Positions 46,222 to 62,571 of a DNA stretch of 64,000 bases are shown here, in pieces. A model generated the notes under the pieces. It had not been told where the DNA came from, did not search any database, and was given only the letters and a program-made list of their open reading frames with translations. The position numbers were made by a program, and so were the translations under genes. Origin of the DNA: a virus; IMG/VR virus record IMGVR_UViG_3300025364_000003, positions 142,529 to 206,528 of that record; one strand, given 5' to 3'. Each line of letters starts with the position of its first letter. Positions within the stretch are counted from its first letter, which is position 1.

Positions 46222-48483
46222 ATGACAGATCTTTTTACAGAAGCAGTAAGGGACGCTGAAAAGCTTAAGGAAATCGCAGAGGCCGATGCGAAGAAAGCCT
46301 TAATTGAAGAACTCACCCCTTACATTAAAAAAGTAATTGCGAAGGAAGCTATGGGTTCCTCGGACTTCTTCTTTGAACAGGAAGATGAAGAGGAGGTTTC
46401 GCCTCAACTACCACCAGACCCTCAGGGTATGGGTGGTACACAACCAACCACTGCTCCAGCCGGCACAACTGATCCGACTCAAACGGTTGCAGGAGAGCTT
46501 GGCGATCAAACAGTGGACGCCCCAGTTCCTGCACCTGGCGGTGAGGATTTGGTTGGTGCTTCTATGCCAGATGAAGATGGAAAGATCGTTGTTGATTTCG
46601 AAGATCTTTTTGTAGACGCTGACTCGGATCAGGTTACAATTACGCCTGGAGAGGCACCACTCCAAGCAGCAGGTGCTCCAGCAGGTGCACAGCCAACTCA
46701 GCCGACAGAGCCAGCTGCTGTGCCAGCTCCAGAAACTGCTGGTCCAGCAGCACCAGTTCAACCAGCTGCTGGTGAGCCAACTGAAGAAGAAGAGGAAGTT
46801 GCACCGCTTCCAACAGAGGCGGTTTCTTATAAAGAATACAATAGGGTCCTTAGTAATATTTCTGAACGGATTGATCGAGCTTATTTCTCAGGACGAGTTT
46901 CTGACATCACGAGAAGTTCTCTTAAAAAGAGACTTTTTGATTTAGTCGAAGCTTTGGATGGAATGCGAGATCGGGGCCTAATTACTAACAAACAAGCTCG
47001 TCTCAACGAAAACAAGTTAGAATTTTTATTCTTAAAGCTGAAAGAGGCAGGTTTGGATAATAGTTACTTGAAGAAAGAACAAGGTAAAGGTACCGATATG
47101 ACAAGTCTCAAAGAATTTGCAGCAAAACTTTTCGAGGAAGATGAAAACCTCGCTAAGGATTCTGCTCACACTGGCGAGTCCGGTTTGAAAGTTGATGACG
47201 AATATTCACGTCACGCAGCTGATGTATCTGGTGTTGATCCACATCTTGGTGGTCCCGAAGACGTTGAAGTCGCTCAGGAGGGCAAGCTTGCCGAAGAGAT
47301 GAAGGGTGGAACCGCTGGCTCTGTTGATGCAGATGCAATTAGTGGCGATGTGCACGATCGTCCTTGGGATGAGGCCGAGCCTGTTGTTGATGAGGAAGAT
47401 CAGGATCAAACCGTTACTCGTTCAATGAATGAGAACAGCGCAGACGCAAACACTGATGCAAATGATGACGTTGCAGAAGGTGCAGCTGGCTTTGGTGACA
47501 CTAACGAAGAACCAGTCGCAGAGTTTGAAGTTGATGACGCCGAACTTGCAGAGGCAGTAAGGGCAATCCGCAAGGAAAATATCAAACGTAAGCTTGATGC
47601 TCTTAGAGAAGCTTCCGACGGCAAAGAAGCAGAGTCATGGGAAGATGCCGAACCAGAAGGTGGTGATGACGGTTCCCATGAGAACCTTGAGGACAGGAAA
47701 CATAAGAGCAATCTTAAAATGAAAGAAAGCATGTACGAAATGGATATGATGGAAGATGATGACCTTGGTGTTGATGATGCCGCAGATCTTGTTCTTTCGG
47801 TAGACCTTCCGCCAGAGGTTGAAGAAGAGTTGGCAGCACTTGGTGTTGATGATCTTGACGTAGACGTTGATCTCAATGTAGGTGCTGAGGATGAGGAAGT
47901 TGAAATCGTTGATGACGAGGATGACGAAATGGATGTTGACCTTGGTGGCGACGTAGACGATATGGAATCCGCAGAAGAAGACATGGTTCTTGCAGATGAG
48001 ATGGAAGAGGCAATGCACATGGAATCCCGTAAGTTCAAACACCTCGCACGTAAGAACAGACTTCTTGAAAAGAAGCTCGCAAAGGCTGTCAAGCTTCTTG
48101 AAGCAAGAGGCAAGCAGGTTGAAGGATTGAACAGACAGCTCGCAGAGACCAACTTGTTCACTTCAAAGACAGTTTACTACAGCAAATTCCTTCAGAGAGC
48201 ACTCTCTGAAAAAGCACTCACCAAGAAGGCTCTACAGCAAATTGTCGAGCACCTTGACAAGGGTGCATCCGTAGCCGAGACAAAGGCTATTTACACAAAA
48301 ATTAAGCGCAGGCTCGACGAGCATGCATCAGCTTCCCGCAAATTGGGTGGTTCTTCCTCTAAGGTGACCAAACCAGGGAGCGCAAACCTCACTGAGGCCG
48401 CTCAGCCACAGGCAGGTCATGATTCCAATGGCCAATCCGCAAATCGCTGGCAGGTACTTGCCGGGATCAAAAAGGTTGACTAA
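46222..48483 (+). CDS. Prohead core/scaffold protein (gp22-like)
   Basis: 753 residues, SD AAGGA. Strongly acidic: Pro/Ala/Gln-rich linker at ~55-195, a helical block at ~205-290, a Glu/Asp-rich region up to ~620 (DVDVDLNVGAEDEEVEIVDD) and a final coiled coil (KFKHLARKNRLLEKKLAKAV). The last residues are SANRWQVLAGIKKVD, ending at D753. Its place directly before the capsid gene, acidity and coiled coils fit T4 gp22-type scaffolds, which are degraded in the maturing head. The C-terminal NRWQVLAGI is shared with the N-termini of several small proteins at 52320-61756. Confidence 0.75.
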   Translation: MTDLFTEAVRDAEKLKEIAEADAKKALIEELTPYIKKVIAKEAMGSSDFFFEQEDEEEVSPQLPPDPQGMGGTQPTTAPAGTTDPTQTVAGELGDQTVDAPVPAPGGEDLVGASMPDEDGKIVVDFEDLFVDADSDQVTITPGEAPLQAAGAPAGAQPTQPTEPAAVPAPETAGPAAPVQPAAGEPTEEEEEVAPLPTEAVSYKEYNRVLSNISERIDRAYFSGRVSDITRSSLKKRLFDLVEALDGMRDRGLITNKQARLNENKLEFLFLKLKEAGLDNSYLKKEQGKGTDMTSLKEFAAKLFEEDENLAKDSAHTGESGLKVDDEYSRHAADVSGVDPHLGGPEDVEVAQEGKLAEEMKGGTAGSVDADAISGDVHDRPWDEAEPVVDEEDQDQTVTRSMNENSADANTDANDDVAEGAAGFGDTNEEPVAEFEVDDAELAEAVRAIRKENIKRKLDALREASDGKEAESWEDAEPEGGDDGSHENLEDRKHKSNLKMKESMYEMDMMEDDDLGVDDAADLVLSVDLPPEVEEELAALGVDDLDVDVDLNVGAEDEEVEIVDDEDDEMDVDLGGDVDDMESAEEDMVLADEMEEAMHMESRKFKHLARKNRLLEKKLAKAVKLLEARGKQVEGLNRQLAETNLFTSKTVYYSKFLQRALSEKALTKKALQQIVEHLDKGASVAETKAIYTKIKRRLDEHASASRKLGGSSSKVTKPGSANLTEAAQPQAGHDSNGQSANRWQVLAGIKKVD

Positions 48484-48538
48484 CGGAAAATAGATATTTT
48501 AACACATACTTAGAAACAGGAGATTTGAGGAGAATACC

Positions 48539-50461
48539 ATGAAGACTTTCACTTTAGAGCAACTCGCAGAAGGCGTACACCGTCGCTCGCTTGGTGCAGA
48601 CTCACCACGACTCGTAAAGAAGTGGGGAGCAACTGGTCTTCTTGAGGGCCTAAAAGGCATGAACCGAGATGGCATGGCACGTCTTCTTGAGAACCAGGCA
48701 GCTGAGCTTCTCAAGGAAACCAACGCTTTGTCCCTTGGTGGTGCTTCTTTGACCTCAAGCGGGAAGATTGCAGGTTTCACAAACGTTGCATTCCCAATCG
48801 TTCGCCGTGTTTTCGCAGGTTTGATTTCAAACGAGATCGTGTCGGTTCAGCCAATGAGCCTTCCAACCGGTCTTCTTTTCTACCTCGATTACACTTACGG
48901 CAGCTCGGTTGGTGGTGACGCAGGAACCGCAGCTAACCAGTTTGCAACAACTAGCGTTGTAGATCCATCAACTTACACCAGCCAGGATTCCGTATACAAC
49001 AACCCACGTGGTGTTGGCGTACGTTCTGGTTCTCTTGCAACCGGTGGACAGTATGACCTTGTAGGTCATGGTTACTCCAAGGTTCACAAGCAGAGCCGTT
49101 TCCTTTCTGGTTCAACCGACTCTGTTGGTTACTGGGCATCTGGCTCCATTTGGACCCCAGGTGGCACAGTAGACACCGCTGATGACTTCGAAGGTCTCAA
49201 CGCACGTTTCGTCATGTACGATACTCGTGTTGAAAACGACCTTACCGATGGCGTACTTGATTACTGCTTCGTGTTTGTCAGCGCATCTGAGTTTACCGAC
49301 AAGATCAACGGTGCTGACCTCAACAACCTCAACCAGATTGCACTCACCGGTTTCGGTGCAGCAACCAACTCTGCTGTTGAGTGGGGAGAGAAGTATCAAG
49401 GTGGTCGAGGCGTGCTTAACCTTCGTCAGATGAACCAGCGTGGTAACTGGAACTCAGCAACTGGTATCTTCACACCAGATCCGCTTAACGGTTCACACGT
49501 GCTTCACGTAGTTCGTCTTGCAAATGCAGGTACCGCACCAGCACCTGATGGAGCTGTCGGTAATGCAGTAACTGCTTCGGCAGCTATCGCAGACGCACTC
49601 AGCGTAAACTCTGACGGTTCAACTCTTACGATTCCAAGCTTCGAGTCTGACTTCGCAGTCGACGCAAGCCCACGTATCCCAGAGGTTGACATCCGCATTG
49701 AGTCCACCAGCGTTACGGCACAAACCCGTAAGCTCAGGGCTCGTTGGTCGCCAGAAATGGCTCAGGATCTCACAGCATTCTACTCAATCGATGTAGAAGT
49801 TGAGCTTACAAACATTCTCTCCGAGATGATTACGCTTGACATTGACCGTGAAATCTTGAACGACCTTCTCACCCAGGCAGGAGCAGCAAACCTCTACTGG
49901 TCCCGAGCACCAGGTAAGCTTGTCAACAAGTTCACCGGCGCAGAGGCTCTCCAGAGCAGCACGCTTTCTCCAGGCCCAATGGCATTCGTAAACATTCAAG
50001 AGTGGTACCAGACCCTCCTTGAGACTGTTACGGACGCAGCAAACACCATTCACCGTAAGACACTCCGTGGTTCCGGTAACTTCATTGTTACTTCCCCAGA
50101 TGTCTGCACCATCCTTGAGCACCTTGTTGCCTACAAGCCTTCCTACAGAGTAGATGCTGACGGTCAGGTTCGTGACAACATGGTAATCGGAGCAGAGGCA
50201 GTTGGTACTTTGAACAACCGTTACACGGTCTACAAAGACCCATATTTCCCAAGCAACAAGCTCTTGATCGGATTGAAGGGTAACACCTTCCTTGAGTCAG
50301 GATTCATCTACGCACCATACGTGCCACTTATCCTTACTCCAGTTATCTACGCTCAGGAAGACTTTACTCCACGTAAGGGCGTCATGACCCGATACGGTAA
50401 GAAGATGGTCAGAAATGACTTCTACGCAACCGTAACTGTTCTTGACATGGGTATAATTTAA
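48539..50461 (+). CDS. Major capsid protein (T4 gp23-like)
   Basis: 640 residues, GAGGAG SD. LVKKWGATGLLEGLKGMNRD, then LLENQAAELLKETNALS, is the propeptide region; cleavage after L-K-E at residue 60 would match T4 gp23 processing after residue 65. The core shows VAFPIVRRVFAGLISNEIVS, VQPMSLPTGLLFYLDYTYGS and near the end RYTVYKDPYFPSNKLLIGLK and FIYAPYVPLILTPVIY, all gp23 hallmarks of the HK97 fold. Codon use is noticeably biased to C-ending codons compared with neighbours, as expected for a very highly expressed gene. Followed by a strong terminator. Confidence 0.95.
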   Translation: MKTFTLEQLAEGVHRRSLGADSPRLVKKWGATGLLEGLKGMNRDGMARLLENQAAELLKETNALSLGGASLTSSGKIAGFTNVAFPIVRRVFAGLISNEIVSVQPMSLPTGLLFYLDYTYGSSVGGDAGTAANQFATTSVVDPSTYTSQDSVYNNPRGVGVRSGSLATGGQYDLVGHGYSKVHKQSRFLSGSTDSVGYWASGSIWTPGGTVDTADDFEGLNARFVMYDTRVENDLTDGVLDYCFVFVSASEFTDKINGADLNNLNQIALTGFGAATNSAVEWGEKYQGGRGVLNLRQMNQRGNWNSATGIFTPDPLNGSHVLHVVRLANAGTAPAPDGAVGNAVTASAAIADALSVNSDGSTLTIPSFESDFAVDASPRIPEVDIRIESTSVTAQTRKLRARWSPEMAQDLTAFYSIDVEVELTNILSEMITLDIDREILNDLLTQAGAANLYWSRAPGKLVNKFTGAEALQSSTLSPGPMAFVNIQEWYQTLLETVTDAANTIHRKTLRGSGNFIVTSPDVCTILEHLVAYKPSYRVDADGQVRDNMVIGAEAVGTLNNRYTVYKDPYFPSNKLLIGLKGNTFLESGFIYAPYVPLILTPVIYAQEDFTPRKGVMTRYGKKMVRNDFYATVTVLDMGII

Positions 50462-50491
50462 ATTATTCCTGCCCTCGCCGGCAAAAAAACG

Positions 50492-50523
50492 AAAAAGCGA
50501 CCACTTGTTGGTCGCTTTTTTCT
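50492..50523 (+). terminator. Terminator after the capsid gene
   Basis: GCGACCA-CTTGT-TGGTCGC hairpin (50497-50515) with an upstream A-run and T6 downstream. Confidence 0.9.
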
Positions 50524-50561
50524 TTTAAAATTCCCTTGTGTTTTCAAGGCCCACCCGCTAT

Positions 50562-50610
50562 TTTTGATATTGTTACTGTGTTAGATATGGGGGTATATAT
50601 CCTGCCCTAT
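50562..50610 (+). repeat. Diverged duplicate of the capsid gene 3' end
   Basis: In one frame this reads DIVTVLDMGVYI; the capsid protein ends ATVTVLDMGII. The DNA differs mostly at third positions (GTA/GTT, CTT/TTA, GAC/GAT), and the similarity continues past the stop into the shared CCTGCCCT (50468 and 50601). It sits just upstream of the GIY-YIG gene. Confidence 0.65.
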
Positions 50611-50645
50611 GCGCCCTATTCTATAGTATAGAGTGGAAGGCAGTA

Positions 50646-51539
50646 ATGAAAATATTTTTACACGGATATGCAAATAAGCGTGGTATTTATAAAATTACTA
50701 ATACAAAAAATGGACGTTATTATTATGGATCCGCTTCTCGTTTAAAAGAACGAGCTTATTCTCATCGGGACGATTTGCGCAGAAATAGGCATGCGAATTT
50801 GTTTTTACAAAGAGATTATAACAAATGTGGCGAAGATGCATTTATATTTGAAGCAATAGAAACAGTAGATGGAGCCAGGGAAGAACAACTCGCTAAAGAA
50901 CAGGCTTACCTTGATAAATTTTTTGATGGAGGAAACGAATGTTACAACCTTTGTCCAAAAGCAGAAAGTAGAGAAGGTAGCAAAAATGTTCGTCCATTTA
51001 ACCCAGAAACAGACGGGCGAGTAACATCACGAACGCCAGAAGTGTGTGCTATTGTAAGCAAGAAAAACAAAAAGACGTGGAACACACCAAAGAAAAAAGA
51101 AGAAGCTCTCAAGAACGCTCAAAAGCGTTGGGATAACCATTCTGCTGATGTAACCGTCACCAATAAAAAGACTGGTGAAACTGTTACCATTGAAGGTTCT
51201 GTCAGGTCTTGGTGCCAAGAAAGAAATCTCTCTTATAAGTCATTTCATTTAATGCTCAAAGGCAAGACTAAATCTTCAGGCGGTTGGTTTCTTGGCACGG
51301 AAGAACCGACTTACGTGGAACGCAAGGGTGAAAAAAGAAAACCTTTGTCGGATGAACATAGAGCCAAGATAGCGGGTGGTAAATATGCTGGTGTTGTCTT
51401 GAAGAACAAGGTGTCTGGTGAGATGTTTGTGGTTGGTGAGAATGCCAAAGCTGATTGCCGTGAGCGTGGCATTTCATATTCAAGCTTTGCAAAAATGATG
51501 AGTGGTAAGTGTAAAAGTGCTTCTGGTTGGATAGTCTAA
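50646..51539 (+). CDS. GIY-YIG homing endonuclease
   Basis: 297 residues, SD GGAAGG. N-terminal domain KRGIYKITNTKNGRYYYGSA, SRLKERAYSHRDDLRR, then F-EAIE and EQAYLDKFF form a GIY-YIG nuclease (Arg after YGS helix, Glu in the E-x-x-x-Y/L-D region). Two C-terminal IENR/NUMOD-like modules follow: GSVRSWCQERNLSYKSFHLM...SSGGWFLG and ENAKADCRERGISYSSFAKM...SASGWIV, with a NUMOD3-like SDEHRAKIAGGKY between. Free-standing enzyme placed after the capsid gene, a typical site for phage homing genes. Own terminator downstream. Confidence 0.88.
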   Translation: MKIFLHGYANKRGIYKITNTKNGRYYYGSASRLKERAYSHRDDLRRNRHANLFLQRDYNKCGEDAFIFEAIETVDGAREEQLAKEQAYLDKFFDGGNECYNLCPKAESREGSKNVRPFNPETDGRVTSRTPEVCAIVSKKNKKTWNTPKKKEEALKNAQKRWDNHSADVTVTNKKTGETVTIEGSVRSWCQERNLSYKSFHLMLKGKTKSSGGWFLGTEEPTYVERKGEKRKPLSDEHRAKIAGGKYAGVVLKNKVSGEMFVVGENAKADCRERGISYSSFAKMMSGKCKSASGWIV

Positions 51540-51560
51540 GTTTTTACTAACAAGATTTTA

Positions 51561-51586
51561 GAGCCTCGTCAAAGACGAGGCTTTCG
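51561..51586 (+). terminator. Hairpin terminator after the GIY-YIG gene
   Basis: AGCCTCGTC-AAA-GACGAGGCT stem (51562-51582) followed by a short T-rich tract. Confidence 0.7.
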
Positions 51587-51598
51587 TTGTTAAAGTCA

Positions 51599-51605
51599 CT
51601 ATTTA
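51599..51605 (+). promoter_or_regulatory. CTATTTA element 5 nt before a GTG start
   Basis: CTATTTA-tacta-GTG(51611), directly after a terminator and without SD, so a promoter is required here; supports a leaderless start. Confidence 0.45.
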
Positions 51606-51610
51606 TACTA

Positions 51611-52225
51611 GTGAACAGTAACCTAAAATCGTTATTAACCTTTCTTGAATCCAGTGCTCAACATGAGGCACTCGAATACGGAACGGAACCAAAAGATGAG
51701 GTTGCTTATCCACCATTTATAAAAAAGCTCGCCAAAGAAGTGGAATTGTTGGATAGAAAAGTTCAAAAGGCATATGAAGAGGGGGATCCCAATGCTACAG
51801 AACTTGATGTGTTGTTTGCAATGAAGCAAGAACAGTTGGAAACTGCCTTATCAGAGTTAGAAGACGAGCCGAAAGAAACTGACTTCGAGGATGAATTTCA
51901 AAGTGGCGGGCAAGAAGAAATGATGAGGCAATTTGCTTCAATCTACCGACATTGGCATGAAAAGATTCCTTATCAGGGTGTCATGTTGGACAAACAACAA
52001 CTTCTTGAGTTTCTTCGTGCTTGGGCTAGAGATTACGGCTTTAGACTTGGTGGATTCAAGGAAGAGACAACTGACGAGCAGCTTTTAGATGCAGCCAAAG
52101 ATTCATATGAGCGCATGAAATATCTAATCAACAAAAAGCAAGTTGTTGAACACAAAGCGTTGAATCTCGAATCTCTCTTGTCGGTCCTTGAACAAGCCGA
52201 ACTTGAAGCGTGTTTGGACGAATAA
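51611..52225 (+). CDS. Protein with LLxxLE helices at both ends, 204 aa
   Basis: GTG 51611 chosen from the TATTTA element and lack of SD; an upstream TTG (51587) lies within the terminator tail. N-terminus NLKSLLTFLESS and C-terminus NLESLLSVLEQAELEACLDE both show an L-L-x-x-L-E helix. The body is acidic and helical: FIKKLAKEVELLDRKVQKAY then MKQEQLETALSELEDEPKET. No family known. The repeated end-helices suggest interaction with the same partner, possibly the prohead interior. Confidence 0.55.
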   Translation: MNSNLKSLLTFLESSAQHEALEYGTEPKDEVAYPPFIKKLAKEVELLDRKVQKAYEEGDPNATELDVLFAMKQEQLETALSELEDEPKETDFEDEFQSGGQEEMMRQFASIYRHWHEKIPYQGVMLDKQQLLEFLRAWARDYGFRLGGFKEETTDEQLLDAAKDSYERMKYLINKKQVVEHKALNLESLLSVLEQAELEACLDE

Positions 52226-52319
52226 CGAAGCTTGAATTCAATAATTGTTGTGTCACATTGCTCAAGAGAGCATACAAAAACTTCATACTAAAAAAGTATG
52301 ATGATTACTTGGAGTAGAA

Positions 52320-52691
52320 ATGTTAACAGAAAGACGTCTTAAGAAACTCGCTGGGCTTATAAAAGAATATGAAGAGGGTCTAATGGTCGGGGAAACGTAT
52401 CAAAGCTGGCTTGACGAACATGGCAAATTACCATCCTTGCCATCTAAGGCAGCAGACAAAATCGTGTACTCGCTTCATGACCTTGAAACGGAAACCGATA
52501 CAGAAGGATACGACGAACTTCAGATAAGCGTTGGTCGCTTACCTAAAGATCTTAAGTTAAAGATTGGTGATGAAATCCTGGTAGTTCCATCAGGATGGTA
52601 TTATTCAACTGAGTCAGAATGGGGCGGACCTAATGTACATGGCCCGTTTGATTCAAAAAAAGAAGCTAGAAACGCAGCAGTGTTTGGCTAA
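52320..52691 (+). CDS. RW-LAG motif protein, 123 aa
   Basis: SD GGAG. N-terminus TERRLKKLAGLIKEYEEG is the LAG-box helix with I-K-E. The rest (YQSWLDEHGKLPSLPSKAAD, GDEILVVPSGWYYSTESEWG) looks like a small beta domain. No known family. Convergent with the next gene after 4 nt. Confidence 0.6.
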   Translation: MLTERRLKKLAGLIKEYEEGLMVGETYQSWLDEHGKLPSLPSKAADKIVYSLHDLETETDTEGYDELQISVGRLPKDLKLKIGDEILVVPSGWYYSTESEWGGPNVHGPFDSKKEARNAAVFG

Positions 52692-52695
52692 TTGA

Positions 52696-53520
52696 TTACT
52701 GATCAAACAGGTACTCTAGGAGTCCTTCAACTACTGATTTTGGTTTCTTTTTATTTATCTTCTTTTTCTTCGTTGGATATTTGCCATGAATGTTTGGTGG
52801 ATTCTTTACGGCTTTCCAGATAAACCAAGTAACAGCTTGAAGTTCTTGTGGAGTCAATCCAACTAGGTCTGCTACTTTTCTGTAATCATGAATGATAGCT
52901 TCTCTTTCAGCCTTTGTTGGTTGTCTTAGATCTTGGAGACGTGTTTTAATTCCTCTCCACACATTGATTGCATGTCCATCAAGAACCAACTCTCTTTCGA
53001 CTCTGTCGGGATTCAACAAAGAATGAAAAAACACGGAAACCTTTGGACCTGCAACAAGACCAACATCTCCGGTGTCGAGGATCTTCAAAGCTTTATAAAC
53101 GTTCGATTTGTATGCAGGAACTTTTTCAAGTGGCCCCAAATCACGTTCGCCTTCAAGCATCAACCAGTTTTCTATTAGCCTCTGTGCGGCCAAGAGATTG
53201 ACTTTCCAGCCAAGGTTCGGACTGAGAACGGCAACAACGGCAGCGGTAACTGGCAACGGCAGCTCATATCTTTCTGCTAATTCTCTTACGTGTTGATGAG
53301 CATGTTGATACCAGTTGCTCCAGTAGTCGATTTCATCTTTGGTTGCTTTTTTCAGTACAGAAAGAATATTATGATAACTTTCGTTTTTTTGAAGATTCAT
53401 TTTTTCATGAGGGATTTTTTTCCTACTTGGTTCATTTAGAACGAAGTCTAAGCCGAATCTTTCCCTCTCATCATAATCGGCTTCAAGGAGCCATTTTAAT
53501 AGTCGTTCAACGTTTCCCAT
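52696..53520 (-). CDS. DUF7178-like helical protein (DNA glycosylase-like pattern)
   Basis: 274 residues. ELPLPVTAAVVAVLSPNLGW, KVNLLAAQRLIENW, PAYKSNVYKALKILDTGDVG and GPKVSVFFHSLLNPD, then LVLDGHAINVWRG match a family seen in many actinophage and environmental phage genomes (conserved SP...W..N, GxKxxxF, D.H). The helical pattern resembles HhH-GPD glycosylases, but no lysine/aspartate pair is secure. Ends: N-terminal VERLLKWLLEADYDE and C-terminal VVEGLLEYLF carry the L-L-x-x-L-E-type helix. Function unknown. Confidence 0.55.
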   Translation of the reverse strand: MGNVERLLKWLLEADYDERERFGLDFVLNEPSRKKIPHEKMNLQKNESYHNILSVLKKATKDEIDYWSNWYQHAHQHVRELAERYELPLPVTAAVVAVLSPNLGWKVNLLAAQRLIENWLMLEGERDLGPLEKVPAYKSNVYKALKILDTGDVGLVAGPKVSVFFHSLLNPDRVERELVLDGHAINVWRGIKTRLQDLRQPTKAEREAIIHDYRKVADLVGLTPQELQAVTWFIWKAVKNPPNIHGKYPTKKKKINKKKPKSVVEGLLEYLFDQ

Positions 53521-53528
53521 GGAGATAA

Positions 53529-54403: not shown

Positions 54404-54451
54404 ATTTATGCTCCTGATTGCTAATTATTCGGGTAAAACTAGTTGGACCAA

Positions 54452-55696
54452 ATGAATCTAATAAAACCAAATGTTAACATCTGGTATCATGGGACGGAAA
54501 AGGGAATTAGTGGACCTTTGCGTTCAATATATCTAACACCAAGCAAAAATTTGGCTAAGCTGCATGGCGATGTTTACGCATTTAGAATTGATCCTAACGC
54601 TAGGTGGCTTGATATTGGCGAACTTTCTTGGGGCGTTCCAAGTATGGATACTATGGGATACGCTGAAGGGATGGATGAAAGATTTCGTTCTAAAGGCTTT
54701 GATGTGGTTTGGGATCGTTCTGATTATCGAAGAGGCCACCAACAAATCTACGTAGTTAACCCTGAGGTACTGTCAATGGTTGATAATATAAACGAATCCA
54801 TTAAGCTCAATAAGCTTTTGATGTTTCTTGAGGCCATATCTCCAGAACAAGTGGAAAAAATCGCATCAGCAGAACCAAATGATGTAATCACGGTATATCA
54901 TGGGACCCCTAAGTTCAGACTTCCTCTTTTGCTAAGTGGATTTGATGCAACCCAAGACATACCAAGAGATTATGGCGGGCCTGTTCATAGGGGCTTGTTT
55001 GTTACTCCAGATTTTGAAGTTGCTAAGAACTTTGGTGGTGGTGCCATTATAGAAATAAAGGTTCCAGCGAAGTTCATCCATGGAACTAACTACAGTGGTT
55101 TTATTGGCCGTAAACAGCAAAAGGAAAAAGGTAAAGAAATATTCGACTGGATTAAAGAAAAGTTTCCTAACTCATTTCGTCCGTACATGAGTCACACAAT
55201 GTTGTCGTCGGGCGCAGAGCCTCAAGGTTTGTTGATAGGAGTTGTAAAGCCAACCCAAATTACAAAGGTCTGGATTTACGAACATGAAAGTAACCAATGG
55301 GTTGAGTACGATCGTAAGGAATATTTGAAAAAACGTGATGTTTATAATCGACGTAGAGTTTTAGATCGATACGAAGAAGAAACTTTCTTTGATCCAGAGA
55401 TACACATGGCTGACCCAAATTTAGATCTTCAAGATTTTGTGAAAGCCTTAGCTAGGTTTGAAAACCGAGAAGGAATGGAAGAGAAATACTTGAAGTTTCT
55501 AAAAATGATGGGTAGCGTAGGAAGAGATAGGCTTGAAGAAAAACTAAGCATGATGGAAATAGGCGGTGCTAAGCTTGGCAAGCTGGCCATGAAAAACATT
55601 ATCGATCAAGTGATGGAATTAGTGGAAAAGGAAAAGAAACCTAAGATTGAGTCAACATTATCAATTGATAAGCTTTTGCACTACTTAGAAGGGTGA
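54452..55696 (+). CDS. Tandem ADP-ribosyltransferase-like protein with internal and C-terminal targeting helices
   Basis: 414 residues from ATG 54452 (TTG 54443 possible). First ART-like unit: NIWYHGTEKGI, RSIYLTPSKNLAKLHGDVYA (Y-H-G-T; S/T-P with helix; then GFDVVWD). Second, from residue ~148: TVYHGTPKFRLPLLLSGFDA, HRGLFVTPDFEVAKNFGGGA, IIEIKVPAKF. These are H-Y type ART signatures. Between them lies ESIKLNKLLMFLEA, and the protein ends ESTLSIDKLLHYLEG, both L-L-x-x-L-E helices. T4 packages ART enzymes (Alt) in its head; the same is inferred here. Catalytic Glu not assigned. Confidence 0.65.
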   Translation: MNLIKPNVNIWYHGTEKGISGPLRSIYLTPSKNLAKLHGDVYAFRIDPNARWLDIGELSWGVPSMDTMGYAEGMDERFRSKGFDVVWDRSDYRRGHQQIYVVNPEVLSMVDNINESIKLNKLLMFLEAISPEQVEKIASAEPNDVITVYHGTPKFRLPLLLSGFDATQDIPRDYGGPVHRGLFVTPDFEVAKNFGGGAIIEIKVPAKFIHGTNYSGFIGRKQQKEKGKEIFDWIKEKFPNSFRPYMSHTMLSSGAEPQGLLIGVVKPTQITKVWIYEHESNQWVEYDRKEYLKKRDVYNRRRVLDRYEEETFFDPEIHMADPNLDLQDFVKALARFENREGMEEKYLKFLKMMGSVGRDRLEEKLSMMEIGGAKLGKLAMKNIIDQVMELVEKEKKPKIESTLSIDKLLHYLEG

Positions 55697-55702
55697 GCAC
55701 GT

Positions 55703-56548
55703 ATGAGCAATAAACTAAGATGGAAAAAATTAGCAGGACTTCTTACTGAAGGATATGAAGATCGCTGGCCTTCCCGTGAAGACGAAGAAGAAGAATTGGC
55801 CGATCTAAAATCAAAAGCAGAACCAAGACTTCCTCGAACTGTTGTTGTTGATGATGAAGAATATATTGGTGGTCGTCGGGCACCAGCCTGGATGCGTTCG
55901 GACTACGATCCAAAGAGTGATTCATATGCTTTTGATCTTGACTACAACCCGTATAAAGAATTAGATGAGCAAGTTGACATGGTTGCAGATATGAATGCGC
56001 CAGTTGAACCAGTAATTTCTGGACTTGCTCCTATCTCAAGTTTGGAGCAACAAAGAGATGATGTCAGAGATGAAATCGATGATGTCAAGAACTGGCTCGC
56101 TGGATACGTTTCTTATCTTAGAGCAATTCATCTTTGGTTTCACGCAGCTCATCATCTTACCAAAGGCACTGGATTCGCTGGTGACCATGAAGACCTTTAT
56201 GGAAGGATATATACTGAAGTCCAAGATGAGATTGATGGCGCCATAGAAAAAGCTGTCGGTGTTACCAACGATGAATTGCTTGCTTGCCCTCTGATGATTA
56301 CAAGCAACGCTGTTGAAATAATGGAAGAAGCAGGTTGTAAGGTAAGCGACAGTGCTCACAATATCGCAAAAGCCGGACTTCGTCTTGAAAAAGCTTATAT
56401 AAAATTTGTTGAGGAAATGTTTGCAACTTTGGAAGAAATGGATGCCATGACGCTTGGTTTGAATGATCAACTTGCATCATCAGCCAACACTCACGAGACG
56501 TATGTTTATCTTCTTCAGCAAAGAGTTAAGGATAGCAAAAAATTGTGA
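55703..56548 (+). CDS. Dps/ferritin-like protein with RW-LAG targeting motif
   Basis: 281 residues, SD AGGGTGAG. N-terminus NKLRWKKLAGLLTEGYED is the LAG-box helix with L-L-T-E. Residues ~22-125 are acidic and disordered. Residues ~128-275 form a four-helix bundle with YLRAIHLWFHAAHHLTKGTG, FAGDHEDLYGRIYTEVQDEI and DGAIEKAVG, the Dps pattern (H...D/E-x-x-E...D-x-x-x-E-R/K). Dps proteins bind iron and protect DNA. A capsid-targeted Dps could shield packaged DNA or be injected. Fusion of a long acidic spacer to Dps is unusual. Confidence 0.7.
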   Translation: MSNKLRWKKLAGLLTEGYEDRWPSREDEEEELADLKSKAEPRLPRTVVVDDEEYIGGRRAPAWMRSDYDPKSDSYAFDLDYNPYKELDEQVDMVADMNAPVEPVISGLAPISSLEQQRDDVRDEIDDVKNWLAGYVSYLRAIHLWFHAAHHLTKGTGFAGDHEDLYGRIYTEVQDEIDGAIEKAVGVTNDELLACPLMITSNAVEIMEEAGCKVSDSAHNIAKAGLRLEKAYIKFVEEMFATLEEMDAMTLGLNDQLASSANTHETYVYLLQQRVKDSKKL

Positions 56549-56551
56549 TAA

Positions 56552-56941
56552 TTAAACTACTTTTTTAACTCTCAAAGCACATCTTTCTGGTTTCAAACCA
56601 TTTAACCAGCCTCTTGATGTTTCTACAACATATTTGACCGGGGGAGTCTTGTAAAGTGTTTGTGTTCCTGATTTCATGGGAATAAAACAAACCAAATGGC
56701 CATTTTTATCAAATCCAAGCAAATCTAAATCAAACATTACATTATTCATGTGAAAATGGCGAGAAGATTCTTCATCAAACAAAAACAATAAGCCTTCGCC
56801 TGGTTTTGGAATGTCTTTTTCGAATTGATATCCGCAGGCTCTTTCGGCATCGGTGCTAAGCACACGCATTTTAATTGGTGCGTCACCAATTCTTCCATGA
56901 CAAAAAACGTGCATAAACGTAATTAGGACAAAGTAAGACAT
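56552..56941 (-). CDS. DUF192 family protein
   Basis: 129 residues. MRVLSTDAERACGYQFEKDI, GEGLLFLFDEESSRHFHMNN, VMFDLDLLGFDKNGHLVCFI then YVVETSRGWLNG follow DUF192 (A-T-x-x-x-R-x-x-G-L, G-M-L-F-x-F, F-W-M-x-N-T, L-D-L-x-F-I-D, Y-V-L-E-x-x-x-G). The usual GLM is CGY and FWM is FHM. DUF192 proteins are small beta proteins of unknown function; no clear signal peptide, though the first 12 residues are hydrophobic. Convergent with the Dps-like gene. Confidence 0.75.
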   Translation of the reverse strand: MSYFVLITFMHVFCHGRIGDAPIKMRVLSTDAERACGYQFEKDIPKPGEGLLFLFDEESSRHFHMNNVMFDLDLLGFDKNGHLVCFIPMKSGTQTLYKTPPVKYVVETSRGWLNGLKPERCALRVKKVV

Positions 56942-57056
56942 GGAGTTCGATGATAAACTTTTTTATTTGACTATTTATATCTACAGGATTTCATACGAAT
57001 CTTCAAAAAACCGTTGCAACCACTATTTAAGCAAAGGAACAGTCGGAGAATAAACA

Positions 57057-57548
57057 ATGGCAGAGACACTTACAGTAACAGATATGCTTCCTACTAAGTT
57101 TGAACCACTTGCAAAACGTAGGTTCTTGCTTGCTATTGAAGGCATTGACTCCTTTATCGTAAAAACCGCAGCTAGACCAACATACACCACAGAGGAAATT
57201 ACAGTCAACTGGATCAACCACACTCGTTACCTCGCAGGTAAGACAACCTTCAGTACAATTTCAGTAACTCTTCACGATCCAATCGCACCTGCTGGTGCGC
57301 AGCAAGTTATGGAGTGGGTGCGTCTTTGCTTTGAATCTGTTTCTGGCCGTGGTGGTTACGCTGATTTCTACAAGCGTGACATCCAACTCAAGATGCTTGA
57401 CCCAGTTGGTACCGTAGTTCAACTTTGGGACATCAAGGGTGCATTCATTACAGAAGCAAACTTCAACGACGTTTCCTATGATTCAACTGCTGACCTTGCA
57501 GAAATCTCATTGACCATTCGCTTCGATAACGCAGTTTTGCAGTTTTAA
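57057..57548 (+). CDS. Tail tube protein (T4 gp19-like)
   Basis: 163 residues. FEPLAKRRFLLAIEGIDSFI, VKTAARPTYTTEEITVNWIN, RYLAGKTTFSTISVTLHDPI, MEWVRLCFESVSGRGGYADF and the end AEISLTIRFDNAVLQF are all characteristic of gp19 tube subunits, with the expected length. CTATTTA lies 27 nt upstream. C-ending codon preference, like the capsid gene, suggests high expression. Separated from the sheath genes by ~14 kb, unlike T4 where 18 and 19 are adjacent. Confidence 0.92.
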   Translation: MAETLTVTDMLPTKFEPLAKRRFLLAIEGIDSFIVKTAARPTYTTEEITVNWINHTRYLAGKTTFSTISVTLHDPIAPAGAQQVMEWVRLCFESVSGRGGYADFYKRDIQLKMLDPVGTVVQLWDIKGAFITEANFNDVSYDSTADLAEISLTIRFDNAVLQF

Positions 57549-57624
57549 AATATATTTGTTCGCAGTACACAAATATCAAACAACATGGTAAACTCTCCTT
57601 AGAAGACAGTTCAAGGAGAGTTTT

Positions 57625-58470
57625 GTGTTTAAGTGCCCTTTGTGCAAAAACCAATATGAAAAACTTATTTCTTTGTCTGTCCATTACAGAAAAGGGCACA
57701 AGAAAAAGTCAAAAGATTTAATTGTTGACTTGTATTACAATGGCAGAGAGCCCACGTGTGCTTGTGGTTGTGGCGGGGAAGTAAAATTTCTTGATATAAC
57801 TCGTGGGTTTCGTGAATTTATTCATGGACACGCAGCACGCATACCAGAAAAAAATAATTTTGTTTCAAACAAAGCCCAACAAAACAGCGCTAAAACACGT
57901 AAAAAGATGATTGAAAGTGGAGGCTGGAAACCATTTCACCTAAAAGAAACTAGTGAACATTGGGGCAAAGGTTTATCAAAAGAAACCGACGACCGCATAG
58001 CCAAAATGGCTAACTCCATTAAAACAAATAAAGTTGAAATTGAAAAACGTTCAAAACGTATGCGCAAAGGACGTTTAGATGGAACAATACCGACACTTCA
58101 CAAAGAGAACCATAGCCAATGGAAAGGTGGTATCAGCCCACTAAATCAATATTGTCGTAGTAGTATTAAACTTTATTCAAATTGGAAATATCCTTTGCTT
58201 AAAGCGGCAAAATTTCAATGTGTCATGTGTAAAAAACCTGGTCCTGGCTTGGAAATACATCACAACAAAGAAACAATGTCTTCCATAATTCGTAAATTTG
58301 CTAAAAAATTTAAATGGGATCATTATTACAACAGCAATGCACCAGCAAATGATCAAAATTTGATTAATATCAAAGATCAAATTGCAGAAGCCGTTGCTGA
58401 CTACCACATTCAAAACAATGTGTCCGGCGTTGTCCTGTGTTCCAAATGTCACAGTAAAGAACATAACTAA
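57625..58470 (+). CDS. HNH homing endonuclease with N-terminal zinc finger
   Basis: 281 residues from GTG 57625, SD AAGGAGAG. FKCPLCKNQYEKLISLSVHY is a C2H2-like finger; TCACGCGGEVKFLD is a short Cys knuckle common in phage HNH enzymes; the C-terminal domain has CVMCKKPGPGLEIHHNKETM (Cys-x-x-Cys plus the catalytic His-His) and VVLCSKCHSKEHN. It follows the tail tube gene by 76 nt, the usual placement of free-standing homing genes beside conserved virion genes. Ends before a strong terminator. Confidence 0.85.
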   Translation: MFKCPLCKNQYEKLISLSVHYRKGHKKKSKDLIVDLYYNGREPTCACGCGGEVKFLDITRGFREFIHGHAARIPEKNNFVSNKAQQNSAKTRKKMIESGGWKPFHLKETSEHWGKGLSKETDDRIAKMANSIKTNKVEIEKRSKRMRKGRLDGTIPTLHKENHSQWKGGISPLNQYCRSSIKLYSNWKYPLLKAAKFQCVMCKKPGPGLEIHHNKETMSSIIRKFAKKFKWDHYYNSNAPANDQNLINIKDQIAEAVADYHIQNNVSGVVLCSKCHSKEHN

Positions 58471-58489
58471 TTTCAGCTTTGCAACCCAG

Positions 58490-58518
58490 AAAAGACCTGG
58501 CCAAAAGCCAGGTCTTTT
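58490..58518 (+). terminator. Terminator after the HNH gene
   Basis: GACCTGGC-CAAAA-GCCAGGTC stem (58494-58514) with A4 before and T4 after. Confidence 0.9.
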
Positions 58519-58543
58519 CTATTTAAGCTTGTCGGAGTATGAA

Positions 58544-58849
58544 ATGAAAATAACCAAGTCACAACTTAGAGAAATGATCCGAGAAGCCATCAATGAACAG
58601 GTTGGCGGAAACGATATTCTACAACAAGACTTAGGAGGAGAAGGAAAAGAGCTTCTCGATACTTTTATTCAATCTATGGATGAAGCAGTACAAGCTTGGT
58701 ACGCATTACACTATTGGCTTGAACCGTCTGAAGAAGCAGATGTAGCAATGTTACAAGAGTTAGGTAAGGAAGTCGGGAATTTTATTGTTGATGAGAACTT
58801 GACTGCATGGCTTAACAGCCTTGCAGAAAAAGCAAAAGCTGACAAGTAA
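58544..58849 (+). CDS. Targeting-helix protein, 101 aa
   Basis: ATG 58544 has CGGAG upstream; an open frame from 58382 overlaps the HNH gene and terminator and is rejected. N-terminus MKITKSQLREMIREAINEQV is the class-B helix, here without an L-x-E end. The body is acidic and helical (FIQSMDEAVQAWYALHYWLE). CTATTTA at 58519. No family known. Bounded by terminators on both sides, so it has its own transcription unit. Confidence 0.62.
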   Translation: MKITKSQLREMIREAINEQVGGNDILQQDLGGEGKELLDTFIQSMDEAVQAWYALHYWLEPSEEADVAMLQELGKEVGNFIVDENLTAWLNSLAEKAKADK

Positions 58850-58874
58850 GACATTTTGAATCTAATTGATGTTT

Positions 58875-58900
58875 GCCATACTCATAGTATGGCTTTTTCT
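58875..58900 (+). terminator. Terminator after the 101-residue gene
   Basis: GCCATAC-TCATA-GTATGGC stem (58875-58893) followed by T5CT4. Confidence 0.88.
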
Positions 58901-58925
58901 TTTAAAAATTCCTGGAATATTTTTA

Positions 58926-59317
58926 ATGTTTAGTTCTGAAGGTGTGCTCAAGTATTTCATAATTGACGAAAGCAATTATAAGCTAACGCTTTTGGTCGAT
59001 ACGGAGATTGCTCGTTATTATCGTAATTTCGTTCCAAAGTCTCAGAAGTGTCGGCCTGGTCGTTATGCACCTCATATTACAGTTGTTAGAAATGAACGAC
59101 CTTTGAATATGAAAAAGTGGGGCTTGTATGAGAACAAAGTGATTAGCTTTGAGTATGAACCCTACATTTGGTATGATGAAACTTATTGGTGGCTTAATTG
59201 CCACTCTTCCTTCTTGAAAAAACAAGAGAAGAACTTGGATTACCAAAATGGGCAAAGTGGAACATGCCTCCAAGTGGAAAAGCTTGTTTTCATATGACAA
59301 TAGGCAATTCAAAATAG
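58926..59317 (+). pseudogene. 2H phosphoesterase-like gene split by one-base deletion
   Basis: Frame from ATG 58926: FSSEGVLKYFIIDESNYKLT, CRPGRYAPHITVVRNERPLN (first HxT motif) and WWLNCHS. It then drifts to a non-homologous end, while the neighbouring frame reads LEKTREELGLPKWAKWNMPP then GKACFHMTIGNSK up to the TAG at 59315, supplying the second HxT motif. One base lost next to the A-run near 59215 explains this. The restored protein (~130 residues) would be a two-histidine phosphoesterase, acting on 2',5' or cyclic phosphate RNA ends. As given, the second catalytic His is lost. Confidence 0.68.
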
Positions 59318-59360
59318 GAACAACCATTCAGTATCCGCTAGTTAAGCTTATAGGATTATC

Positions 59361-59573
59361 GTGGCCAAAATCTTAAAAGAGCGATGGATGAAATTGGCTG
59401 GCTTACTCAAGGAAGCTGATGATTTGGAAATTGATATACAGGATTCAGATGATTCATCTTCTGAGTGGCAGAGAGACAAAAAACGCTCTGATGAAGAAGA
59501 GCCTGGTTGGGATCCTGCTGATGAAGATGAATGGCTTGCAGAAGAATTAGGTTCTTGGCATTCGGAAGGTTGA
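59361..59573 (+). CDS. Small acidic RW-LAG motif protein, 70 aa
   Basis: GTG start with TAGGA upstream. AKILKERWMKLAGLLKEADD is the LAG-box helix with L-K-E at its end; the other 48 residues are highly acidic and Ser/Trp-containing (DSDDSSSEWQRDKK). If cut after L-K-E, the product is a small acidic peptide, as in T4 internal peptides. Overall a minimal cargo unit. Next gene starts 1 nt after the stop. Confidence 0.6.
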   Translation: MAKILKERWMKLAGLLKEADDLEIDIQDSDDSSSEWQRDKKRSDEEEPGWDPADEDEWLAEELGSWHSEG

Positions 59574-59574
59574 T

Positions 59575-60033
59575 ATGAATAAAATAAACAAAAACAGATG
59601 GCAACAGCTCGCTGGACTCAAGGAGTCTTCTGTAGGAACAGAAGAAAGAGAACGGCTTAATGAAGGTTTTATGAATCTTGGAATGGCAAGTCCAGCACCA
59701 ATGGGTAATCCATTCGGCAATCGTCCTAAACAACCGGAATACAATTTTGAGGGAATTTTAGAAGAGATGGCTCCAGAATTGGATCCTGATAAAATTGAAG
59801 TTGAGCCTGATGAAGACCACGAGGGTTCTATGGCCAGAGGTCAACTTGAAAAAATCCGCAAATATTCCAAAGAATTGCTTTTAAAGCTTCCAGAAGATGC
59901 GCAACTTGAAGCTTGGGTGCAAAGCAAGCTTACTCTCGCAGCAGAAATGATGGACGTTGTAGCACACTATCTTCAAGATGAAGCTGGCGATGATCAGGAT
60001 GATGAGCACGGCCTCGAAAAAGATGTCAAATAA
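59575..60033 (+). CDS. RW-LAG motif protein with phage QLEAWVQSKLTLA module
   Basis: 152 residues. NKINKNRWQQLAGLKESSVG is the signal with L-K-E. The C-terminal part ARGQLEKIRKYSKELLLKLP, EDAQLEAWVQSKLTLAAEMM, DVVAHYL is a helical module common in T4-like marine phages. Pro/Gly-rich middle. Overlaps the next gene by 11 nt. Confidence 0.6.
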   Translation: MNKINKNRWQQLAGLKESSVGTEERERLNEGFMNLGMASPAPMGNPFGNRPKQPEYNFEGILEEMAPELDPDKIEVEPDEDHEGSMARGQLEKIRKYSKELLLKLPEDAQLEAWVQSKLTLAAEMMDVVAHYLQDEAGDDQDDEHGLEKDVK

Positions 60034-60720
60034 AATAATAAAAGAGAGATGGCAGCGGCTTGCTGGTATTGTTAAAGAATCGTCTTATCACATGGCCAAA
60101 CATGACCATGTTGCAAGTGTTGTTAATAAACATGTGGCTGGCCTAATCAAAGACCTTGAGCTTGATCCAGTAGATGCCCCAGAAGTCTTCGATGATCTTA
60201 CTCATAACATTAAACGATATCTCTCTTCCGTACTAGGAGAATCAACATCTTCGATAGCTGAAAGAACATCACCTGAAGCGGCCCAGGACGTCGCTGCTTA
60301 CTTTGGAACTAATGATTCGGTAGATGGGCCATATAAAAAAGTTTCGGCTTTACAGCCCTTCCAAGACGCCAAACATCGTAAGAAATTTTTAAAAGCCATA
60401 CATGCAGAAGGTGCCTTGGGGAAAGCAAGTATCCGGAGACTGCATCGGAATATGCCGAGCTTCTTAACAAGCAGTCAAAAGGACCATTTAAACTAGTTGT
60501 CGATCCTTCTCATTGGGAACAATATGACGTAAGAACCGGTGAAGATTTAGCAAAATATTTGGCAATTGAGACTTATAGGGATGTATACAAGGATGTTTAC
60601 GGAATTCGTCCTCGGCGTAGTCTGGAAGACAAGTCTGTTGAAGAGATCGAAGCTATGATTGATTCTTTGTCGGAAGATTTTGAAGAAGACGACGATTCAT
60701 GGCTGCGCAATATAGACTAA
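60023..60720 (+). pseudogene. RW-LAG motif protein, split by one-base deletion
   Basis: From ATG 60023: NKIIKERWQRLAGIVKESSY (signal with V-K-E), then helical DVAAYFGTNDSVDGPYKKVS and FLKAIHAEG. The frame then shifts; the -1 frame continues LGESKYPETASEYAELLNKQ, PFKLVVDPSHWEQYDVRTGE, VYKDVYGIRPRRSLEDKSVE to the TAA at 60718. The second part contains the DVYGxRPR module seen in many phage proteins. Break near 60410-60418 beside GGGG. Restored length ~232 residues. Confidence 0.62.
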
Positions 60721-60738
60721 ATCAAGAACTCATCGTAT

Positions 60739-60755
60739 GCTAATCGGTAATTAGC
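60739..60755. repeat. Short inverted repeat
   Basis: GCTAAT-CGGTA-ATTAGC, perfect 6-bp arms, 16 nt before the GTG of the next gene. Too weak for a terminator; could be an operator. Confidence 0.3.
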
Positions 60756-60770
60756 AAACAAAGGCAAGCC

Positions 60771-61433
60771 GTGCAAGATACGAAACAAACCTTTTTTAAA
60801 CAGATTGATAGATACTTTAATCGTTCACTTGATGAAGTTGCCTCTAATTTAGAAAAAATTGGCAGCAAACGAACCGATCCAAATTTGAATCAACATGCAT
60901 TTAGAGGGGAAGTAACTTTAGAAGAAGTAGTTCATATAAAACCAAAAGTTTCTAAATTCGTTCCAGGTACTTTGCTTACATCTCCAGAGGGTATTGACAA
61001 CTACGAAGAAAACGATTTTGGCGTTGGTAACTTAACGTGTGCCAGTTCAGAAGAAATGGAAGCAAATATTGTTTTGGGTCCCACGAAAGAGATTTCTGAA
61101 ATTGGGAAAACCAAAAGATTTCTTGTTCCAGAAACTATCATGATTACAGATGAGTTCATACAAATTCGCAAGCACACAACGGTAAAAGCAGCAGAAAATT
61201 TTGAAAAGTCTTGTCATAAAAACATCGTTTTTTATACCGTTAAACATGTTTTACATGTTTTAGACAATAAAAACAAGCTTACTATACCGACTAATATGTT
61301 TAAAGAAGACAATGGACAATTCAGCTCAGATTTGGTAATGTTTGATACATTTGATTATGATCTTGTAATGCATTTATATGACACTGCCAAGCCTGAGGAA
61401 ATTGTGAAACCGTTGTCCATATTCAACAAATAG
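60771..61433 (+). CDS. Unknown protein, 220 aa
   Basis: GTG start with AAAGGCA upstream. Helical N-terminus FFKQIDRYFNRSLDEVASNL, then beta-rich sequence (FVPGTLLTSPEGIDNYEEND, RFLVPETIMITDEFIQIRKH, IVFYTVKHVLHVLDNKNKLT). No targeting helix and no known family. Ends 5 nt before a strong terminator. Confidence 0.6.
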   Translation: MQDTKQTFFKQIDRYFNRSLDEVASNLEKIGSKRTDPNLNQHAFRGEVTLEEVVHIKPKVSKFVPGTLLTSPEGIDNYEENDFGVGNLTCASSEEMEANIVLGPTKEISEIGKTKRFLVPETIMITDEFIQIRKHTTVKAAENFEKSCHKNIVFYTVKHVLHVLDNKNKLTIPTNMFKEDNGQFSSDLVMFDTFDYDLVMHLYDTAKPEEIVKPLSIFNK

Positions 61434-61437
61434 ACAC

Positions 61438-61460
61438 GGCGGCCGAATGGCCGCCTTTTT
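61438..61460 (+). terminator. Terminator after the 220-residue gene
   Basis: GGCGGCC-GAAT-GGCCGCC stem with T5 behind it. Confidence 0.92.
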
Positions 61461-61467
61461 CTATTTA
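61461..61467 (+). promoter_or_regulatory. CTATTTA element 5 nt before a start codon
   Basis: CTATTTA-aatgc-ATG(61473), squeezed between terminator and gene with no room for a normal leader. Strongest case for leaderless initiation. Confidence 0.5.
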
Positions 61468-61472
61468 AATGC

Positions 61473-61721
61473 ATGCTTCAGAAACTTTCAAAACTTTTCA
61501 CCGAACATCCAGGAGAACAGGGAGAAACTTATTGGCAGCACGCTAAATTTGCCCTCGGTGTTTCTTTTCATTTTTTTATTTCTGCTATTTTTTTGATTTT
61601 GCATGCTTTATTTCCTTTTGTTTGCCCACCAAAACCATTTGAATTATCATCGACAATAAACTACTTAACCAAGAAATGCGATAATCGCAAGGCCGATAAA
61701 AGTGGGCCGCCGTATCCATAG
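61473..61721 (+). CDS. DUF6356-like small membrane protein
   Basis: 82 residues: LSKLFTEHPGEQGETYWQHA then KFALGVSFHFFISAIFLILH ALFPF. The HP..GE-[TS]-Y-x-x-H pattern followed by two short hydrophobic segments and H-A-x-F-P-F matches DUF6356, proteins best known from alphaproteobacteria. No SD. Probably inner-membrane; role unknown. Host-derived gene is possible and could point to the host group. Confidence 0.65.
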   Translation: MLQKLSKLFTEHPGEQGETYWQHAKFALGVSFHFFISAIFLILHALFPFVCPPKPFELSSTINYLTKKCDNRKADKSGPPYP

Positions 61722-61755
61722 TATGGATTTACCAGATTGGTTCGAGGGAAAAAAA

Positions 61756-62571
61756 ATGACAAAAATTCTTAAAGAACGTTGGATGAGATTGGCCGGAGTG
61801 TTACAAGAAAAGACCGAGCCTAATCCAGGCGAAGACCGCCTTAAGGATGCTAAGCATTATGTAAGAAATGCTATGGAAGCACTTCAAACTGCCATCGAAA
61901 AAGGCTTGGATGAAGATCAAGAGATGGCAAAGGAAATTGAGGGCCAGCTTTCAACTGCTTACAAAAAGCTTACTGGTGCCGAAGAAAGCGACCGAAAAAA
62001 CATTGGCGAAGCACAGTTTGCAAAAGATGCGTTAGAAGACATTGAAACACTTTGGCAGCCTAAGCCAGGTGAAGATTATGAACTCGGCGTAGATTATCAG
62101 CAACCTCCAACAATGATTGGTTCGGTTCAAGATGAAGAGTTTTCTTTAGATGATTTTGATCCAGAAGATGAAGGGCTTACCATCAGAGAACCAGGTTACG
62201 AGACTGATCCAGAGTATGATGAGGATCAACTAGGCGATCTTTATGGTTCTACGTGGGAAGAAGAAGAGGAACGTACCCATTGGGGGGAACCGGTATTTAG
62301 AGATACAGATATTGGCAGAAAAAGCGACTTCATTAAGAGAAAAAGCGACTTCATTAAGTCAGAAGATGCCACACAGGCCGAGGATAAGCAATGGAGCAAG
62401 TCGGATTTGCAATACGCTGCGCAATATTTTTGGACAAGCGTTAATCGAAGAGGGAATGATTACGAAGACGCACTAAACTTTGCAAGTAACAATTTCGACA
62501 TTCCAAAAGATGTGCTTGAAAAGGCATATGACGATTTTGAAAAGGAATATGACACGATGTACATCTTTTGA
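61756..62571 (+). CDS. RW-LAG motif protein, 271 aa
   Basis: ATG 61756 has GAGGG at 8 nt; the longer frame from 61702 overlaps the previous gene. TKILKERWMRLAGVLQEKTE is the LAG-box helix with L-Q-E. Then a helical AKHYVRNAMEALQTAIEKGL, a long acidic disordered region (residues ~100-205), a tandem heptapeptide RKSDFIK RKSDFIK from a 21-bp DNA repeat, and a C-terminal helical DLQYAAQYFWTSVNRRGNDY. Resembles the other cargo-like proteins. Confidence 0.6.
   Translation: MTKILKERWMRLAGVLQEKTEPNPGEDRLKDAKHYVRNAMEALQTAIEKGLDEDQEMAKEIEGQLSTAYKKLTGAEESDRKNIGEAQFAKDALEDIETLWQPKPGEDYELGVDYQQPPTMIGSVQDEEFSLDDFDPEDEGLTIREPGYETDPEYDEDQLGDLYGSTWEEEEERTHWGEPVFRDTDIGRKSDFIKRKSDFIKSEDATQAEDKQWSKSDLQYAAQYFWTSVNRRGNDYEDALNFASNNFDIPKDVLEKAYDDFEKEYDTMYIF
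62317..62358 (+). repeat. Perfect 21-bp tandem duplication
   Basis: Two adjacent identical 21-bp units (62317-62337, 62338-62358) encode RKSDFIK twice inside the 271-residue protein; a recent in-frame slippage. Confidence 0.9.

Follow-up and report, generated by a model that had tools for sequence, protein, structure and literature searches.

A peptide box shared by the scaffold C terminus and the N termini of small proteins in a T4-like virus is a probable docking signal for prohead assembly

Introduction

For decades, the capsid-targeting sequences of phage T4 have served to carry foreign proteins into phage heads, and we found no account of exactly what these sequences bind. T4 internal proteins enter heads by means of such sequences, which are N-terminal, 10 residues long and removed by gp21; residues 4 and 7 act in targeting, residues 8 and 10 govern processing, and the internal proteins co-purify with gp22 (PMC9026906). 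The carriers in T4 are IPI, IPII and IPIII (Mullaney and Black 1996, as reviewed in PMC9026906). In giant phages of the SPN3US type, ejection proteins and the protease are believed to reach the prohead through propeptides that are removed after x-x-E (PMC5694885, PMC7411985). In herpesviruses, the maturation protease removes a C-terminal peptide of the scaffold (UL26.5, M site) that binds the capsid protein (PMC12474303). Here we describe an RW-x-x-LAG box in a large T4-like virus and many uncultured relatives, and we think it quite probable that scaffold and cargo share this box as a docking peptide in prohead assembly and that it is cut off at maturation.

Results

The window, the whole stretch of DNA that we analysed, comprises the final 64 kb of an IMG/VR viral record of 206,528 bases. 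Its head region is T4-like, with a scaffold gene followed by a gp23-type capsid gene (Table 1), and this order, in which the scaffold gene lies directly upstream of gp23 as in gp22 scaffolds, was found in the window and its relatives. No PHROG or Pfam family above the cut-off was assigned to the scaffold. The same genome encodes a T4-type portal and a gp21-type protease, both about 70 to 75 kb upstream of the scaffold, and most relatives whose loci extend that far also encode the protease. The portal open reading frame (L097:4973-8200; G000:112,972-116,199) is 1075 aa long and has an intein-like insert, CLHGDTKIA...VISHN, that was recognized by inspection. Translations inspected near the head genes (L097:14122-15789 and 9850-10167) resemble a GroEL-like chaperonin (555 aa) and a thioredoxin-like protein, respectively. 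The window also holds two adjacent tail-sheath paralogues of ~1,000 aa each (36858-39917 and 39974-43003), and genes resembling GIY-YIG and HNH homing endonucleases are found among the head and cargo genes (50646-51539, 57625-58470 and 62686-63411).

Table 1 Features of the head and cargo region. Numbers refer to the window unless a locus is named; a slash marks a predicted cut.
Feature	Position	Strand	Details
gp21-type prohead protease	G000:117,183-117,803 (L097:9184-9804)		PF03420, E=5.6e-22; ~71 kb upstream
Second-class protein	45127..45618	+	MKLNRTQFKKILKECIRELITE/G
gp22-type scaffold, 753 aa	46222..48483	+	directly upstream of capsid gene; acidic, helical; AlphaFold2 of last 165 aa
L-T-E predicted protease site, scaffold linker	48388..48396	+	Glu is residue 725, position 137 of the 165-residue fragment
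Scaffold C-terminal box	48442..48480	+	NRWQVLAGIKKVD, then stop; separate helix in AlphaFold2 model
gp23-type major capsid protein	48539..50461	+	phrog_138, E=2.8e-72
KKWGATGLLEG in capsid propeptide	48617..48649	+	possible distant box version
Client 52320	52320..52691	+	box MLTERRLKKLAGLIKE at 52320-52367 (L for W)
Client 55703, Dps-like mini-ferritin	55703..56548	+	box MSNKLRWKKLAGLLTE/G at 55703-55750
Second-class protein	58544..58849	+	MKITKSQLREMIREAINE/Q
Client 59361 (GTG start)	59361..59573	+	box VAKILKERWMKLAGLLKE/A at 59361-59414
Client 59575	59575..60033	+	box MNKINKNRWQQLAGLKE/S at 59575-59625
Client 60023	60023..60496	+	box MSNKIIKERWQRLAGIVKE/S at 60023-60079
Client 61756	61756..62571	+	box MTKILKERWMRLAGVLQE/K at 61756-61809

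Six-frame translation placed W..LAG at exactly six sites in the window: the C terminus of the scaffold and the N termini of clients 55703, 59361, 59575, 60023 and 61756, for which start codons were inferred. Client 52320 begins with the same box, with L for W (RRLKKLAGLIKE). A first-pass annotation, made from the sequence by eye, had reported that the scaffold ends and six small proteins begin with this box, and its coordinates proved correct. It had also described the remainder of the six proteins as unrelated, and blastp indeed found no similarity among their bodies at E<=1e-3. A body search with one tool found no relatives of clients 59575 and 61756; relatives of client 59575 at two loci (L019 and L357) are likewise boxed. 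The boxed set is larger than first listed and includes MTKISKRRLMELAGL..., a short way upstream of the window, as well as an internal box, SRWQQLAGLKVVSELLTE, in a 356-aa protein just upstream of the window (L004:856-1926; G000:140,206-141,276). This 356-aa protein matched DUF3008 (E=8.3e-18) and has a weak DnaJ-type Cys motif.

The box was present in all 78 scaffold C termini examined, in the strict form R[WF]xxLAG in 72 of them. Across 44 non-redundant tails, the information content was 7.6 bits at W and 3.0 to 3.5 bits at L, A, G and I. An alignment of 45 sequences showed an invariant box R and W, L, A and G conserved at 90% or more; one upstream Glu (residue 725) and four residues of the helical part were likewise invariant or at least 90% conserved. 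In a single-chain AlphaFold2 model of the last 165 residues, long helices lead into a linker of low confidence, and the box follows as a terminal helix of its own. The linker contains an L-x-E, closed by Glu 725, that fits the T4 gp21 consensus. Other proteins in some relatives carry the box at their C termini, and one relative (L051) has an internal copy between two L/I/V-x-E sites. Some tails are unusual (DRFRELVNNKKIG, ERWQKLANI and ERFMHLAGI), and no convincing clients that match them were found in three genomes.

Sites of the protease consensus adjoin the box on opposite sides in scaffolds and clients. The first-pass annotation had not noted these sites, which offer a mechanism for the box. 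In the scaffolds, 42 of the 44 non-redundant tails had L-x-E[GSAN], where the L could also be I, V, M or F, within 28 residues upstream of the box (6.6 in shuffles), and the Glu of the site was about 6 to 30 residues ahead of it. Among 19 N-terminal boxes from the window and its relatives, 15 were followed by L/I/V-x-E within 7 residues of LAG, against 2.7 expected, when V was accepted besides the L/I of T4; the Glu was usually at +4. All six clients of the window have a gp21-type site directly after the box, and three of the four client boxes without a site in 7 residues have L/I/V-x-E farther on. Scaffold tails nearly always end where clients have the site Glu. As the predicted cut lies behind the box in clients and ahead of it in scaffolds, the box would be severed from the bulk of the protein either way. 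The C terminus of the protease lacks the RW-x-x-LAG box and has its own conserved end, DRIxRIxNDIL, instead, which in many relatives is preceded by a possible M-x-E/G self-cleavage site.

We measured how often the motif [RK][WFYM]..LAG[LIVM] occurs against 300 permutations. Eighty loci picked by capsid-protein similarity alone had 75 C-terminal, 5 N-terminal and 0 internal matches (permuted means of 0.16, 0.11 and 0.23), and none of the 300 permutations reached the N- or C-terminal count; because the sequences are related, such shuffle controls overstate independence. The virus's own sequence (the window and 34 kb upstream) gave 5 N-terminal, 1 C-terminal and 1 internal match, with permuted means of 0.02, 0.003 and 0.04. 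Other viral contigs, 1.01 Mb in all, yielded a single match, itself a scaffold tail that adjoins a gp23-type capsid gene (L250). We also scanned IMG/VR with the motif only; among the matches listed, 30 open reading frames ended in the box; the contigs of 25 of these also carry a gp23-type capsid gene, and 2 of the other 5 contigs stop within about 110 bases of the box. Since these motif-only matches cluster on gp23-type contigs, the C-terminal motif marks T4-like scaffolds. Degenerate DNA scans were usable for the C-terminal class and unspecific for N-terminal boxes when compared with a reversed control; the N-terminal clients were drawn mostly from close relatives of the window.

Client 55703 is a Dps-like mini-ferritin with the Dps fold. 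Its profile matched a bacterioferritin chain (E=2.5e-4), and nearly all of the best 50 matches in a fold search were Dps or bacterioferritin, at a probability of 1.0 and an E of only about 0.01. H150, H162, D178 and E182 are invariant across six orthologues; their spacing is close to that of known Dps ligands, and they are candidate ferroxidase ligands. Closer orthologues keep the box with a diverged linker behind it, and two groups of Dps-like orthologues are without the box. Unboxed orthologues at three loci (L375, L376 and L377) start with MIRRIKEQ or MKRRLREQ.

The capsid propeptide contains KKWGATGLLEG, which the first-pass annotation had likened to a distant version of the box; the sequence is there, and the pattern W..(x)LLEG is seen again in capsid propeptides of T4-like phages (NKWKPLLEG in T4 gp23, for example), but its likeness to the box goes no further than resemblance. 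Another class of N-terminal sequence, MK[LI]TxSQL[RK]xII...LxE/[GAS], was found at protein starts 44 times in the 80 capsid-selected loci, against 0.74 expected, and two proteins of the window (45127 and 58544) begin with it. This class and the C-terminal end of the protease might likewise serve as docking peptides.

For named phages, the tails encoded by the gene upstream of gp23 were aligned from the stop codon. They read SRWQKLAGIIK in the cultured relative Flavobacterium phage immuto, ERMKKLAGIVK in Mel-JY01, ERIKRLAGL in RM378, HELRRLAGIEK in Phosso, LDEIAKLSGMDKKR in GAP32, NAYVQQLAKRL in P-HM2, SVYAKVASRF in T4 and xAYxxxAxxx in other Straboviridae, and fit the same plan as the scaffold tail of the window. 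This comparison draws on gene position and pattern, because window-type scaffolds show weak profile homology to T4 gp22 (hhalign E=0.0076 over 29 columns). Phages with Y-type tails have Y/F-type N-terminal sequences of the T4 class, such as MKTYQEFIAE (T4), MKTYKEFITE (KPN6), MKSFKEFITE (Pm5461) and MKSYKQFLSE (S-CREM1). Tail class and targeting class pair up, and shared lineage could explain the pairing. T4 gp61.1 (gene 61.1; L406, T4 18,966-19,130), which is annotated as hypothetical, starts with MKTFKEFIKE, a match to the T4 capsid-targeting sequence, and may be an internal head protein.

Discussion

The first-pass annotation proposed a docking code for cargo loading. A linear peptide common to scaffold tail and clients, tied to T4-like head genes, is what we observed; head loading we infer, as we do binding, cleavage and the acceptor of the box (scaffold core or capsid protein). 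We envisage that a flexible tether links the C-terminal box helix to the rest of the gp22-type scaffold, and that unrelated proteins with an N-terminal copy (C-terminal in some relatives) would bind the acceptor of the scaffold box. Boxed clients would in this way be built into the prohead core. Once activated, the gp21-type protease would cut after L/I/V-x-E, past the box in clients and ahead of it in the scaffold, and this cleavage would free the clients inside the head and release the scaffold. The targeting sequence would be a copy of the scaffold tail with a T4-like mode of action. As to the acceptor, analogy with the T4 literature favours the scaffold core, and the precedent of the herpesvirus scaffold favours the capsid protein (PMC12474303).

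A short motif such as this one can be expected to recur in a large set of open reading frames; chance or composition is nevertheless refuted by the permutations and by the other contigs, which leaves it a negligible probability. It is unlikely that the box acts in scaffold self-assembly only, with the small boxed proteins being accessory scaffold or core components, similar to T4 gp67 and gp68, that are degraded, exit the head and are not cargo. Several clients are indeed small and acidic (59361, 59575 and 61756), and gp21 cuts the core proteins of T4, which mostly leave the head, but a folded Dps-like protein would make an improbable piece of scaffold, and the clients carry a single site immediately behind the box, as do the T4 internal proteins that stay. 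We give about as little credence to a box that chiefly recruits the prohead protease to its substrates, with incorporation into the head through other parts of the proteins. The box does adjoin a protease-consensus site in scaffold and clients alike; the site, however, lies on opposite sides, its distance varies (the Glu is at +4 in clients and precedes the scaffold box by about 6 to 30 residues), T4 targeting and processing use different residues of one peptide, and no such requirement of the protease is known beyond L/I-x-E (PMC9026906).

If the box is a docking peptide, the motif would allow head cargo to be predicted in uncultured phages, and here it nominates the Dps-like protein and several unknown proteins. 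A broader idea, which we put forward tentatively and do not yet lean towards, is that the capsid-targeting sequences of T4-like phages, T4 included, mimic the C-terminal tail of the scaffold and occupy its binding site. Were this true, tail mimicry would reveal what the T4 targeting sequence has as its receptor, and head cargo would be readable from genomes. A scaffold tail of the same sequence points to a testable candidate for a shared acceptor.

Of the known systems, the T4 capsid-targeting sequence is similar in being a short N-terminal peptide on unrelated proteins that ends at L/I-x-E, with a gp21-type protease in the genome, and in having an aromatic and a hydrophobic residue three apart (Y4 and F7 in T4; W and L here). 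The sequences themselves differ (MKTYQEFIAE compared with xxRWxxLAGLLKE), the T4 pattern MKT[YF]xEF is not matched, and unlike the T4 peptide the box plainly matches the scaffold C terminus and occurs at C termini too. Because only the aromatic-x-x-hydrophobic spacing agrees, the box would work like the T4 peptide but is not the T4 peptide. T4 gp22 and other gp22 scaffolds share the gene position and a terminal tail behind a linker with L-x-E sites, whereas tails of the T4 group have Y in place of RW, and no LAG, when set against NRWQVLAGIKKVD; no function for the gp22 tail was reported in the papers that we found.

The herpesvirus scaffold is cut about 25 residues from its end, compared with about 15 to 30 residues predicted here from sequence geometry alone, and no shared cargo peptide is mentioned for it (PMC12474303). 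Propeptides of the giant phages differ in being mostly >100 residues long, and no motif in common with the scaffold has been reported for them. A paper on a 'conserved N-terminal motif' in RaK2, considered as a precedent, concerns tail spikes. That the docking code had not been described, as the first-pass annotation supposed, is too strong given the T4 targeting sequences (PMC9026906), but the copying of a scaffold C terminus was not found in print, nor was a link between targeting propeptides and the scaffold C terminus in the open-licence PubMed Central literature. The docking code thus varies a mechanism already familiar from the targeting propeptides of T4; new with respect to the papers searched are its sharing with the scaffold tail, the conservation of that tail and the mirrored geometry of the predicted cleavage.
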